This document shows positions 3,701 through 9,480 of a stretch of DNA of 26,478 nucleotides, piece by piece. The notes below the pieces were generated by a model. That model searched no databases, was not told where the DNA came from, and saw only the letters and a program-made list of their open reading frames with translations. This stretch comes from a virus. A program made the translations under genes and the position numbers. Numbering within the stretch: the stretch's first letter is position 1; each line of letters opens with the position of its first letter. Where the stretch lies: IMG/VR virus record IMGVR_UViG_3300008107_000642, positions 1 through 26,478 of that record. One strand, written 5' to 3'.

Positions 3701-4069
3701 ATGGCTACTATATGTCTAAGTGCTGAAGCTGTTGAGTTTACAAATGAAGATGGGAGTGTCTTCACAAGCTCACAAGTTACTTTCGCTGACCCTAATACAG
3801 GTGTTTGCGTTACCCGCTTAATGAAACCTATGATGTACAAGCTGTACAAAGTAGGGAGTGAGTACCCATTAATCCGTGTACAAAAAGTACAAACAGAGGA
3901 TTACAAGATTGGGGACAACACCGTGAACACCATTTCTTTGTGCATTATGCACGGAGAAAGCGTGGAGTTTGCTGCGGAGCAAGCTGGGGTTACCTTGCGT
4001 AAGCAAGCTGTTGCAGAGCCACTTGTGGAACCTGCAGAAAAGAACAGTGCGGAAGCACTGGTTCCATAA
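3701..4069 (+). CDS. Hypothetical protein of unusual base composition
   Basis: 122 residues from ATG 3701 (the frame also allows GTG at 3680, less likely). The first 85 residues look like a small beta-rich domain (TICLSAEAVEF, SSQVTFADPNTGVCVTRL, YPLIRVQKV). The tail from about 88 is Ala/Glu/Pro-rich and probably disordered. No family recognised; a small nucleic-acid-binding fold is possible but unsupported. GC is roughly 45% against about 30% around it, and codons such as GCG, CGT and ACC are common here and rare in the neighbours, suggesting separate origin. No Bacteroidetes-type promoter was found in front of it. Confidence 0.6.
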   Translation: MATICLSAEAVEFTNEDGSVFTSSQVTFADPNTGVCVTRLMKPMMYKLYKVGSEYPLIRVQKVQTEDYKIGDNTVNTISLCIMHGESVEFAAEQAGVTLRKQAVAEPLVEPAEKNSAEALVP

Positions 4070-4071
4070 CT

Positions 4072-4149
4072 ATGGGGCTATCCTGTGTGTCTATACTTTA
4101 TGTCTACTCTTTGTGGACATTCTGTATGGACATACGGGATATTTTTTAA
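4072..4149 (+). CDS. Possible tiny hydrophobic peptide
   Basis: A 25-codon frame opens two bases after the stop of the 122-aa gene (MGLSCVSILYVYSLW...). It is hydrophobic enough for a single membrane segment and shares the island's composition. Support is only position and character; it may not be translated. Confidence 0.22.
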   Translation: MGLSCVSILYVYSLWTFCMDIRDIF

Positions 4150-4191
4150 TGAGGCTTAATAAAAATAGACTCTGAATGTTTTATGTGTATT

Positions 4192-4209
4192 GATGTGGTT
4201 AACTACATC
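4192..4209. repeat. 18-bp near-perfect palindrome
   Basis: GATGTGGTTAACTACATC is symmetric about 4200/4201 except for one G-T position. With no loop it is more likely a protein-binding dyad than an RNA hairpin. It lies between the GC-rich island and an AT-rich stretch (4246-4275), in the divergent control region. Confidence 0.45.
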
Positions 4210-4222
4210 TCACAAACACTTT

Positions 4223-4240
4223 AACCAAACATTTGGTTTT
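4223..4240 (+). terminator. Weak terminator-like inverted repeat
   Basis: AACCAA (4223-4228) and TTGGTT (4233-4238) form a 6-bp stem with a 4-base loop, then a short T-run (4237-4240). It could end transcription of the 122-aa gene. The stem is short and could instead be an operator-like dyad. Confidence 0.3.
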
Positions 4241-4280
4241 CTCAAAATATAGTTATATTATATTTAATATAGCTAATAAT

Positions 4281-4439
4281 TACTCTTATCCAAGCAGGTA
4301 TTAACACCAGAAGATTGATGTATTATTCATCTTCCAATAGGGAAATCAAGGGTTGCAACCTTGTAAGAGTACACTAGGGTGAGTTAGGGAATAATAGTCA
4401 ACATTCATATTGTCTGATGTATCAGAAATGTTCTACCCT
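4281..4439 (+). ncRNA. Candidate multi-branched structured RNA
   Basis: There is no gene here. A perfect 8-bp closing helix (4281-4288 with 4364-4371) encloses two hairpins, 4310-4315/4329-4334 and 4347-4351/4359-4363. The latter abuts the closing helix, as in a multi-helix junction. A second domain follows: 4376-4380 pairs with 4435-4439 around 4400-4405/4427-4432, whose tip is CTGA-TGTA-TCAG. A terminator-like hairpin lies at 4469-4526 and a gene begins at 4555. That layout fits a riboswitch or attenuated leader, or a stand-alone phage RNA. I do not recognise a known riboswitch consensus. Confidence 0.45.
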
Positions 4440-4468
4440 TTCCATTCTTTTTAAATTATTATCTTATT

Positions 4469-4526
4469 ATAACAAGCAGAGTACATTGTACTATTGGATG
4501 GACATACACCTGCTTGTTATTTTTTC
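4469..4526 (+). terminator. Terminator-like hairpin after the structured RNA
   Basis: ATAACAAGCAG (4469-4479) pairs perfectly over 11 bp with 4510-4520 and is followed by a T-run. Inside is a second perfect hairpin, AGTAC-ATT-GTACT (4480-4492), stacked on the outer stem, with an unpaired stretch 4493-4509. The long inner part is unusual for a simple terminator and suggests a structured 3' domain or attenuator. Confidence 0.6.
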
Positions 4527-4554
4527 TTATTATTAATTAATTAAAATACAAACT

Positions 4555-4761
4555 ATGTATACGCACAAAAAGATTACCAATGAGAGGTTTTCCATAAGAT
4601 TCTGTACAATAGCAGAATATATGGGATTCAAAAGAGTTGGTCCATTTGAGAAGTTACTTAAACAAATGCATCCTCATGCAAAGTTAGCCTTTGCTATGGG
4701 ACATGCAAGAGTTGCAAGACTTCTTGTGGAGATAACCTACTTTAAAAGAGAGGAACAATAG
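4555..4761 (+). CDS. Small hypothetical protein, first gene after the structured RNA
   Basis: 68 basic residues (MYTHKKITNERFSIRF...), helical in the second half (FEKLLKQMHPHAKLAFAMGHARVARLLVEI). No family recognised. The start is preceded by AAAATACAAACTATG, the local form of the A-rich start signal. The TAG stop lies in the loop of a terminator hairpin, so the gene is probably a single transcription unit controlled by the upstream RNA element. Confidence 0.65.
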   Translation: MYTHKKITNERFSIRFCTIAEYMGFKRVGPFEKLLKQMHPHAKLAFAMGHARVARLLVEITYFKREEQ

Positions 4762-4775: not shown

Positions 4776-4808
4776 ATTAATGCATCAATCTAGTTTCACA
4801 AGGACTAG

Positions 4809-4918
4809 CAGTTGTAATACCTGAATAGGTAACAAAAAAAAATAAAAGTAGGCATAATAATAGGCTTTGATAGTATTCATGTAAGGACCTGTTTGAAGTA
4901 GCTTTTTTATTACAACTG
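4809..4918 (+). ncRNA. Candidate structured RNA closed by an 11-bp stem
   Basis: This gene-free stretch lies between a terminator and the ORF at 4963. CAGTTGTAATA (4809-4819) is perfectly complementary to 4908-4918, 88 bases later. Inside, ACCT-GAAT-AGGT (4819-4830) forms a small hairpin, followed by an A-run and a stretch with no strong pairing. A perfect 11-bp long-range match in 110 bases is unlikely to be chance, but strand and function are open. Confidence 0.4.
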
Positions 4919-4962
4919 AATGCAGAGTGATAATTAATAACTAACTTAAAACACATAAAACT

Positions 4963-5139
4963 ATGGGAAAAATAGAAATGCTAGCTATACAATTAGCTAA
5001 CGCTATTGTTGACAACAATGATAATGTTGAAAACATAGAAGAGTCTTATGCTGTACTTGGTATAGCAATGAATAAAATCTTGACAGAAATTAAACTTGCT
5101 CATATGTCAAGAGCTAATGAATTAAGAGAGATGCACTAG
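4963..5139 (+). CDS. Small helical hypothetical protein
   Basis: 58 residues (MGKIEMLAIQLANAIVDNND...), predicted almost wholly helical, no family recognised. It is preceded by AAACACATAAAACTATG, the repeated start signal of this block, and its TAG stop lies inside a terminator hairpin. Confidence 0.65.
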   Translation: MGKIEMLAIQLANAIVDNNDNVENIEESYAVLGIAMNKILTEIKLAHMSRANELREMH

Positions 5140-5898: not shown

Positions 5899-6507
5899 AT
5901 GGAAAAAACTTGTATACAATGTGGAGTAATATTATGTGAAAAGAATTGGTTTATATGTGGAAAATATATAGTAAAAAAATGTAAATCTTGTTCAACAAAA
6001 ACAAAATCTTGTGATTATAATTATAATTCTTTAGAATTAAATCTATTTGCAAATAGAATGTCACGTAATATAAATACTAGATTAAGAAATTTTAAAAAAA
6101 CTGGAAGAGGAAAAAGAAAAGCAAGATTAGAAGGAAGGCCTTGTGTACAATGTGGTGTTATAATATGTAATAAAAATTGGGTGTTAAATTATTTTAAAGA
6201 TAAAATAGCATATATTTTATCTAAATGTAAAGCTTGTCATAGTAATTCTAATTCTTGTAATTATAATTATGAATCTTCTGAATTACAAGCTCTTTCAAAA
6301 AAAATGTTAAGAATTATAACATCTAAATTACATTATACTAAAAACATCACAGATCCTAATTTTGTAAAGTATAGAAGACAATATAGTTTAGATTATGCAG
6401 ATAAAAATAAACAACGTCTTTATGAAAAAACAAGACTTAAAAACATGTTCAGGAGTGGCAGATATGCTAGCTCAAACATTAGTAGATTTAAAGAACAAGA
6501 AAGCTGA
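5899..6507 (+). CDS. Protein with duplicated Cys-rich (zinc-binding) module
   Basis: 202 residues with two copies of one module. Copy 1 (about 5-68) and copy 2 (about 81-150) share C-x-Q-C-G-V-I-x-C-x-K-N-W, then K-C-K-x-C, then S-C-x-Y-N-Y-x-S-x-E-L and a basic helix. The Cys pairs suggest a treble-clef or ribbon zinc site per copy. The C-terminus (YRRQYSLDYADKNKQRLYEK) is basic and resembles tails of small nucleic-acid-binding or HNH-type proteins, but no HNH catalytic motif is seen. Codons are more A/T-rich than neighbours. The last 44 bases overlap the next gene in another frame, as if the coding end had been laid over it. Confidence 0.7.
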   Translation: MEKTCIQCGVILCEKNWFICGKYIVKKCKSCSTKTKSCDYNYNSLELNLFANRMSRNINTRLRNFKKTGRGKRKARLEGRPCVQCGVIICNKNWVLNYFKDKIAYILSKCKACHSNSNSCNYNYESSELQALSKKMLRIITSKLHYTKNITDPNFVKYRRQYSLDYADKNKQRLYEKTRLKNMFRSGRYASSNISRFKEQES

Positions 6508-7909: not shown

Positions 7910-7985
7910 AGTCAGGTGGTAGATTGGAATACAAGTTGCCTTAACAGGTCGCTCTAATATGCAGGTTCAAATCCTGCCCTGACTG
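7910..7985 (+). tRNA. tRNA-like gene with aberrant anticodon arm
   Basis: A perfect 7-bp acceptor stem pairs 7910-7916 with 7978-7984, and a perfect 5-bp T stem pairs 7961-7965 with 7973-7977 around TTCAAAT. The D arm is short (7919-7921 with 7930-7932). The anticodon arm is poor: 7935-7939 with 7948-7952 has two wobbles and one mismatch and leaves an 8-base loop CTTAACAG. A TAA (Leu, UUA codons) or AAC reading is possible depending on register. CCA is not encoded. It may be a decayed tRNA or an unusual functional one. UUA is a very common codon here, so a Leu tRNA would make sense. Confidence 0.5.
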
Positions 7986-8570: not shown

Positions 8571-8622
8571 CTTGTCATATAATGTACAAAAACATGCATT
8601 TTTGATACTTTTAAAACACATT

Positions 8623-9480
8623 ATGATAGAAAAAGTAAATAGAAAATCAATGGTCATTAGACCAAGTGGAAGATCTACAGACTTTATTAGTCCTAGTTTT
8701 GGTCATGGCTGTTTATATAATTGTGGTTATTGTTATATGAAAAGACATAAACCAGAAGGTTTAGATATTGCTGTTAATACAGGAGATATCTTAACTGCAA
8801 TTAATAACCATGTATTCTTTACTCATGTAGATAAACCAAATCAGACACATAAAGAATATATTACTTATGATATATCTTGTAATGAAGACTTTGCACTTCA
8901 TGCTAAATACCATCAGTGGGAAAAGATATTTGATTTCTTTAAACAACATCCTATAGCTATGGGTAGTTTTGCAACTAAATATGTTAATGTAAATCTAATA
9001 AACTATGATCCTGAAGGTAAAATAAGAATAAGATTTAGTCTAATGCCACAGAATGTATCTGATAAATTAGAGCCTAATACATCTAAGATAATAGATAGGA
9101 TAAAAGCTATTGATGCATTTATAGATGCAGGATATGATGTACATATTAATTTCAGTCCAGTATTAGTTTATGGAGACTGGTTAAAAGACTATAAATATCT
9201 ATTTCAAATGGTTAATGATTATGTAGATTATAAAGATGTGGTAAAAGCAGAAGTTATATTCTTAACTCACAATGAAAATAAACACAAGTATAATTTAGAC
9301 AATAATATTCCAGGAGAACAAGAATATCTATGGGTTCCTACAATACAAGAGGCTAAAATATCTCAGTATGGTGGTAAGAATATAAGATATAAATACAATT
9401 TAAAGAATGATTTTATTAATTCTTTTACTAAATTGCATGATGAAATCATTCCATGGAATACAATAAGATACATTTTTTAA
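8623..9480 (+). CDS. Radical SAM protein, spore-photoproduct-lyase type
   Basis: 285 residues. C30-x3-C34-x2-C37 in GHGCLYNCGYCYMKRH is the radical SAM [4Fe-4S] motif, and the downstream order (ATKYVNVNL, IRFSLMP, DAGYDVHINFSPVLVYGDW) is that of the SplB-like branch. Such enzymes cleave S-adenosylmethionine to a 5'-deoxyadenosyl radical; SplB repairs a thymine dimer in DNA, but many relatives have unknown substrates. ATG 8623 is chosen because CTTTTAAAACACATTATG matches the local start signal and because an upstream TTG start (8572) would add 17 residues outside the family domain. It lies among unknown small genes, so no pathway can be inferred. Repair or modification of nucleic acid is the best guess. 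Confidence 0.85.
   Translation: MIEKVNRKSMVIRPSGRSTDFISPSFGHGCLYNCGYCYMKRHKPEGLDIAVNTGDILTAINNHVFFTHVDKPNQTHKEYITYDISCNEDFALHAKYHQWEKIFDFFKQHPIAMGSFATKYVNVNLINYDPEGKIRIRFSLMPQNVSDKLEPNTSKIIDRIKAIDAFIDAGYDVHINFSPVLVYGDWLKDYKYLFQMVNDYVDYKDVVKAEVIFLTHNENKHKYNLDNNIPGEQEYLWVPTIQEAKISQYGGKNIRYKYNLKNDFINSFTKLHDEIIPWNTIRYIF

Follow-up and report, generated by a model that had tools for sequence, protein, structure and literature searches.

A conserved RNA module of 91 nt, which we call RNA-A, almost certainly represents a real structured RNA family, with 11 distinct copies (the one described here included) in 10 phage lineages. It is a new family within an already known kind, the structured phage RNAs of unknown function. 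The copy from which the analysis started lies in the window, i.e. the whole 26,478-nt stretch of viral DNA that was analysed (IMG/VR record IMGVR_UViG_3300008107_000642). A sequence-only reading had described positions 4281–4526 as one multi-branched RNA followed by a terminator-like hairpin. This 246-nt stretch is made of three unlike things: RNA-A (4281–4371), a middle domain whose structure is unsupported and a terminator-like hairpin. Preservation of a covarying RNA among phages whose terminases are only 23–42% identical points to a shared molecular target, early in infection. The copies are located among early genes of distantly related phages of the Bacteroidota type, cultured Flavobacterium phages included. 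The crAss-like phages, to which most of the carriers belong, are among the most abundant phages known.

The window and its early-gene locus

The 26.5-kb window belongs to an environmental crAss-like phage, and the DNA polymerase, helicase and primase that it encodes have their matches among phage families. A near-identical sister contig of 85,026 bp (G001, IMGVR_UViG_3300008110_000023) has a 114-bp terminal direct repeat and encodes a crAss-like terminase (phrog_6681, E 1e-127); the capsid protein shows ∼35% identity to named Crassvirales. Genes run leftward up to ∼3.2 kb and rightward from 3.7 kb, and the GC skew switches there. The noted stretch begins after the first ORF of the rightward block and the hairpin that follows it. 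The features of the locus are as follows.

3701–4069, + strand: first ORF of the rightward (early) block, with no assigned function; the strand switch lies just 5′ of RNA-A
4079–4147, + strand: long terminator-like hairpin carrying U6, between the first early ORF and RNA-A (z −11.4; 0 of 200 shuffles)
4281–4371, + strand: RNA-A, conserved RNA module of 91 nt (11 distinct copies, covariation)
4281–4288, + strand: closing helix P1, 5′ strand UACUCUUA, pairs with 4364–4371
4289–4298, + strand: joining strand UCCAA(UU)GCAGG, conserved; UU missing in the window
4297–4346, + strand: variable insert, in the window with a 3-bp hairpin (4297–4308) and a 6-bp hairpin (4310–4334)
4347–4363, + strand: hairpin P3, CAAGG-GUUGCAA-CCUUG, abutting P1 with zero gap
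4364–4371, + strand: closing helix P1, 3′ strand UAAGAGUA, pairs with 4281–4288
4372–4464, + strand: second domain of the sequence-only reading, without structural support
4469–4525, + strand: terminator-like element, 11-bp helix of 4469–4479 with 4510–4520, then U6; 59 bp shorter than in the sister contig
4555–4761, + strand: 68-aa ORF 3′ of RNA-A, without family match; relatives only within the same species

Elsewhere in the window, ARAGORN called no tRNA gene, and the one Rfam tRNA match, at 7910–7985 on the + strand (41.7 bits), was missed by ARAGORN. This crAss-like phage also encodes a spore-photoproduct-lyase-like radical SAM protein and a ferritin-like protein (8572–9480 and 2276–2899).

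Architecture of RNA-A

The perfect 8-bp closing helix described from the sequence was confirmed (4281–4288 with 4364–4371), and so was the internal hairpin said to stack on it (4347–4351 with 4359–4363); both recur with covariation in the 10 other copies. The second internal hairpin is present as well (4310–4315 with 4329–4334) and falls within the variable insert. The nested stems of the proposed second domain exist too; the structure of 4372–4464 is unsupported, with z −0.9 and no relatives found. An 11-bp hairpin with a T-run ahead of an ORF does exist (4469–4479 with 4510–4520, six T, ORF at 4555), in a shortened form. A single structure spanning all 246 nt was not borne out, the conserved RNA being limited to 4281–4371.

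Folding energy of the whole 246 nt was too weak to serve as proof of structure: the fold gave z −1.7 relative to shuffles, eight of 200 being as stable, and z −1.4 in a second run (19 of 200). Folded alone, 4281–4371 gave z −1.7 and 4372–4460 gave z −0.9, with 41 of 200 shuffles equally stable; the terminal hairpin is the sole part that stands out energetically (z −4.6). We consider the structure of RNA-A real because other copies carry matching base changes in the paired stems.

In P1, the outer pairs covary (AU/UA/GU), and the inner pairs covary in the copy of Flavobacterium phage Fpv20 and in the second copy of contig L119. P3 is paired in 100% of cells across all counted copies, with loop variants GUUGCAA, AUUGCAA, UGCAA, UACAA or UAGA. 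The insert that separates P3 from the joining strand is hypervariable (14–76 nt), with length, sequence and predicted fold differing per copy. The aligned copies make it probable that the joining strand forms a pseudoknot with the loop of P3, UUGCA facing UGCAA in most of them; one clear compensatory change was seen in L111, where UUGUA faces UACAA. In the window GCA (4294–4296) may pair with UGC (4354–4356), three pairs being possible at most. The pseudoknot is thus short in the window, as it is in L121, and it is missing in L120 and G010.

Search for further copies

A BLASTN search with the region against phage records yielded no match, and the neighbouring proteins, terminase and capsid, used as single queries, produced mostly same-species matches. 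A terminase alignment search collected 80 crAss-like loci. Among these, a scan for long-span perfect stems gave the first homologue, in L040 (39% terminase identity), with the same ends as 4281–4371; model R2, made from the window sequence alone, had missed it. The search pattern CTCTTATCC-N55..85-CTTGTAAGAG then matched 15 stretches of IMG/VR, and 84,980 cellular genomes yielded another 12. The stacked P3, CAAGG-loop-CCTTG, is present in 10 of the 15 viral stretches, which make eight distinct sequences, including those of the window's species and L040; it is present in none of the five remaining viral stretches (L109, L113, L115, L117 and L123) and in none of the 12 cellular ones (L124–L135). 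These 17 matches were judged to be chance because they are without a P3 of the family type.

Three copies were found without the pattern: the second copy in L119, with P1 CTCTCA/TGAGAG; the copy in G010 (E 3.8e-4); and the copy in the cultured Flavobacterium phage Fpv20, detected with a model built from the window alone (E 0.013). The Fpv20 copy (NC_031912, 88312–88400, − strand) is unannotated and lies between gp80 and gp79. It has the consensus AATTGCAGG together with CAAGG-TGCAA-CCTTG, where the window has AAGCAGG and GTTGCAA. It is identical in 18 phage records, Fpv20 and 17 others of F. psychrophilum phages, so that direct testing in cultured phages is possible. A single-sequence model with strict filters found RNA-A in none of 396 Bacteroidota genomes, a result that does not prove absence.

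Covariation and specificity

Compensatory changes in aligned relatives, the test proposed along with the sequence-only reading, are present. The alignment was built without structure and the variable insert was removed beforehand; covariation on this structure-free alignment exceeds all 500 shuffles. When the P1 columns fixed by the search pattern were excluded, the value was 0.240 versus 0.098 ± 0.027, again higher than in every shuffle; with Fpv20 added it was 0.253 versus 0.109 ± 0.022 in shuffles (0 of 500). Pairs of P1, P3 and the pseudoknot are formed in 89.6% of cells, versus at most 46% with the partners slid. With Fpv20 in the alignment, 11 of 22 pairs are changed on both sides, a count that rests on 10 sequences and in which several of the two-sided changes of Fpv20 amount to one event, because mainly one base pair was lost from both P1 strands. 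A structure descriptor (with TCCA and CC added) matched 11 times in 1.26 Mb, and 10 of the matches are family members (L040 and L120 among them being the same copy); shuffled DNA gave one match.

Genomic context of the copies

Of the 11 carrier records searched, nine have a terminase of the crAss-like family phrog_6681; the other two are a short fragment (L110) and a 180-kb contig (L122). In crAss-like contigs RNA-A is on the early-gene strand, often in a noncoding stretch, at 0.4 to ∼7 kb from the early/late strand switch. Genes around the copy in L122 run nearly all one way. The strand of RNA-A agrees with that of the neighbouring and downstream genes in the copies examined, and the ORFs 3′ of the copies look, on inspection, mutually unrelated.

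Terminator-like hairpins, identified by eye, separate RNA-A from the ORF that follows it in the window, L110, L111, L114, the first copy of L119, L120 and L122; L119, L120 and the window have such hairpins directly 5′ of RNA-A as well. A start codon lies ∼20–50 nt 3′ of RNA-A, with no terminator between, in the second L119 copy, L121, G010 and Fpv20; for these four copies a role in a 5′-UTR fits better than a free RNA. L119 is the contig that carries two copies.

Relation to known RNAs

The sequence-only reading had recognised no known class, and Rfam agrees: over 4080–4620 no Rfam 15 family came near its gathering score, the best matches being due to chance, and Rfam had no match over RNA-A in the carriers L110, L111, L114, L119 and L121. 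No description of RNA-A turned up among the open-licence papers searched, and structured noncoding RNAs went unmentioned in the crAss-phage literature as covered by a non-exhaustive keyword search.

Several known systems bear some likeness to RNA-A. The put RNA of phage HK022 is likewise small and folded; it occurs close to where the early transcript starts (presumably so for RNA-A), has terminators downstream and has no known dedicated protein. With a length of ∼70 nt, put RNAs are encoded either immediately or ∼270 nt downstream of early promoters (PMC9378689). Where put consists of two stem-loops, RNA-A forms a closed multibranch that includes a stacked hairpin and, probably, a pseudoknot. 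GOLLD and ROOL, too, are phage-encoded structured RNAs with undefined function and with conserved and variable parts (Rfam; PMC12286853); they differ in being far larger (over 800 nt for many GOLLD RNAs) and in their frequent location near tRNA islands, and RNA-A has no Rfam match. The stack of P1 and P3 resembles the acceptor/T-arm stack of tRNAs and tRNA-like RNAs, whereas the T-loop consensus, the anticodon arm and the CCA end of a tRNA are lacking.

Bacterial Y RNAs (YrlA), the partners of Ro60, are small and noncoding and combine a closing stem with a tRNA-like part; RNA-A shares with them small size, noncoding nature and the closing stem. Phage crAss001 produces a TROVE protein early (PMC8375218). 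The TROVE domain (PF05731) was absent from G001 and 29 related records, in a search whose control was detected in Deinobacterium; the Y RNA/Ro60 reading of RNA-A was therefore rejected.

Possible function

Tentatively, and with somewhat less than even confidence in the statement as a whole, we read RNA-A from its sequence and setting as an RNA family of crAss-like and some other phages that would be made early and act in trans. It would be transcribed alongside the early genes soon after infection; early genes of crAss-like phages are transcribed first, in phi14:2 by a virion-carried polymerase (PMC10136315, PMC8375218). The rigid, nearly fixed-sequence P1–P3 core would be read by a partner common to distant phages, perhaps the ribosome, an RNA-binding protein or an RNA polymerase of the virion or the host; the insert would tolerate change. 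RNA-A would then likely be a discrete or processed early RNA and not a switch for the gene behind it. An independent RNA is favoured since the downstream genes are unrelated, terminators stand on both sides in several genomes and one copy is duplicated. The layout had been described from sequence as that of a riboswitch or attenuator, or of a free phage RNA; the first half of this proposal, as a gene-specific device, is disfavoured by the lack of kinship among the genes 3′ of the copies, and the free phage RNA corresponds to our leading reading. A more specific proposal, rather doubtful as a complete statement, is that crAss-like and flavobacterial phages would employ RNA-A during the first minutes of infection, either to modify the polymerase, as a put analogue, or as a takeover RNA; it would be one among several interchangeable structured modules in a noncoding ‘RNA island’ that opens the early block.

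Close behind the trans-acting reading, owing to the early position and to the copies just before start codons, comes a cis-acting antitermination RNA that, like HK022 put, would bind the elongating RNA polymerase and let it pass downstream terminators. RNA-A is placed early in the early block, on the right strand, with a compact fold of 60–120 nt; terminator-like hairpins often follow it, the downstream genes are unrelated and L119 holds two copies, all of which suits such a role. Terminator-like hairpins, however, also stand directly 5′ of RNA-A (window, L119, L120), and these count against it because a downstream cis element cannot relieve hairpins upstream of it under the same promoter. Moreover, some copies are several kilobases away from the strand switch, and RNA-A has neither the two-stem-loop shape of put nor a recognised sequence match to it, so we regard this role as unlikely, if a serious contender. 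The chances are clearly lower for an attenuator or riboswitch that would control the gene behind it through two exclusive folds. Within the window CAAGCAGGT (4291–4299) can pair with ACCTGCTTG (4508–4516), the 3′ strand of the terminator-like hairpin, an exact 9-nt complementarity with a U-run after the hairpin, and four copies are near a start codon. Yet a 9-nt complement within 246 nt is not rare (∼0.1 expected by a rough estimate), no counterpart was seen by eye downstream of other copies, the downstream genes are unrelated, and a variable insert in multiple contexts is ill-suited to one expression platform.

It is improbable that RNA-A is a tRNA-like RNA, be it the relic of a tRNA or a decoy against defence nucleases that cut tRNAs. 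The gapless joining of P1 to P3, a hairpin with 5 bp and a 7-nt loop, gives something like an acceptor/T-arm stack of 12–13 bp, and the probable pairing of the joining strand with the P3 loop is akin to D-loop/T-loop contacts; against this, RNA-A has no TTCRA T-loop, CCA end or kept anticodon arm, and neither ARAGORN nor Rfam calls it a tRNA. A DNA-level element close to the strand switch (an origin, an attC-like recombination site or a hairpin promoter for the virion polymerase) would agree with the position at the GC-skew turn and the palindromic arms, and crAss-like transcription has been likened to that of phage N4 (PMC10136315). Such an element is very improbable, given a distance to the strand switch that varies from ∼0.4 to 7 kb, conserved pairing that spans a variable insert and includes G-U pairs, and a strand that is always that of the neighbouring genes where examined. 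That RNA-A is a functionless chance fold of AT-rich phage DNA is hardly credible: the energy alone is weak, as such a fold would have it, while the specificity controls and the preservation of sequence and covarying pairs across phages with 23–42% identical terminases speak against chance.

The terminal hairpin

In the sister contig the region is identical save for 59 extra bases inside the last hairpin (L002 4879–4937). In this intact form (L002 4854–4966) the 11-bp stem closes three hairpins, with z −3.6 and, in a second run, z −3.0. Compared with its sister the window has gaps at 4493/4494 (59 bp), 6420–6429 (∼163 bp) and 22134 (∼226 bp). The latter two disturb ORFs, the AAA ATPase ORF having 202 aa instead of 394 aa. 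Since the sister is intact and the two other gaps disturb genes, the comparison of the contigs suggests that the shortened hairpin probably reflects misassembly or a defective variant and not the normal form; the two other gaps likely have the same cause.

Right after the first early ORF of L103 (5488–5592, − strand), model R1 of the terminal element in its intact form matched weakly (E 0.44); the two share ACUAAUCUA at the same fold position, and homology is not claimed. L103 has three further long-stem elements at 4801–5109.

Other structured RNAs nearby and in relatives

The noncoding parts of crAss-like phages are enriched in long-span stems of ≥11 bp (26 versus 6.3 expected; 37 versus 30 in coding parts), and most of these stems are unrelated to RNA-A. 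One in the window, between two small ORFs at 4808–4917, is a perfect 11-bp stem CAGTTGTAATA/TATTACAACTG with a span of 110 nt.

The four closest loci have a conserved RNA region at the same early position (L028 407–1100, L029 410–1168, L030 1–211 and L031 6151–6865, all on the − strand). This region shows covariation of its own and contains the hairpin ACAAATAG-GAACAATAGTAG-CTATTTGT, which covaries, and a 23-codon ORF (MKDTYIILNGVLT..). Its middle module is swappable, resembling a tRNA in L029 and L031 and missing from L030. The region was considered as a syntenic homologue of RNA-A and rejected: the RNA is real, but its sequence is not homologous.

A large structured-looking region is shared by L031 (5898–5045, − strand) and L114 (2850–1984, − strand), with 73% identity over 880 nt, and the terminases of the two phages are much more distant than this RNA. 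It had no Rfam match. A weak match to Lak megaphages was observed (70% over 130 nt, E 0.01), and the region is, as judged from sequence comparison, a candidate for a new large phage RNA class.
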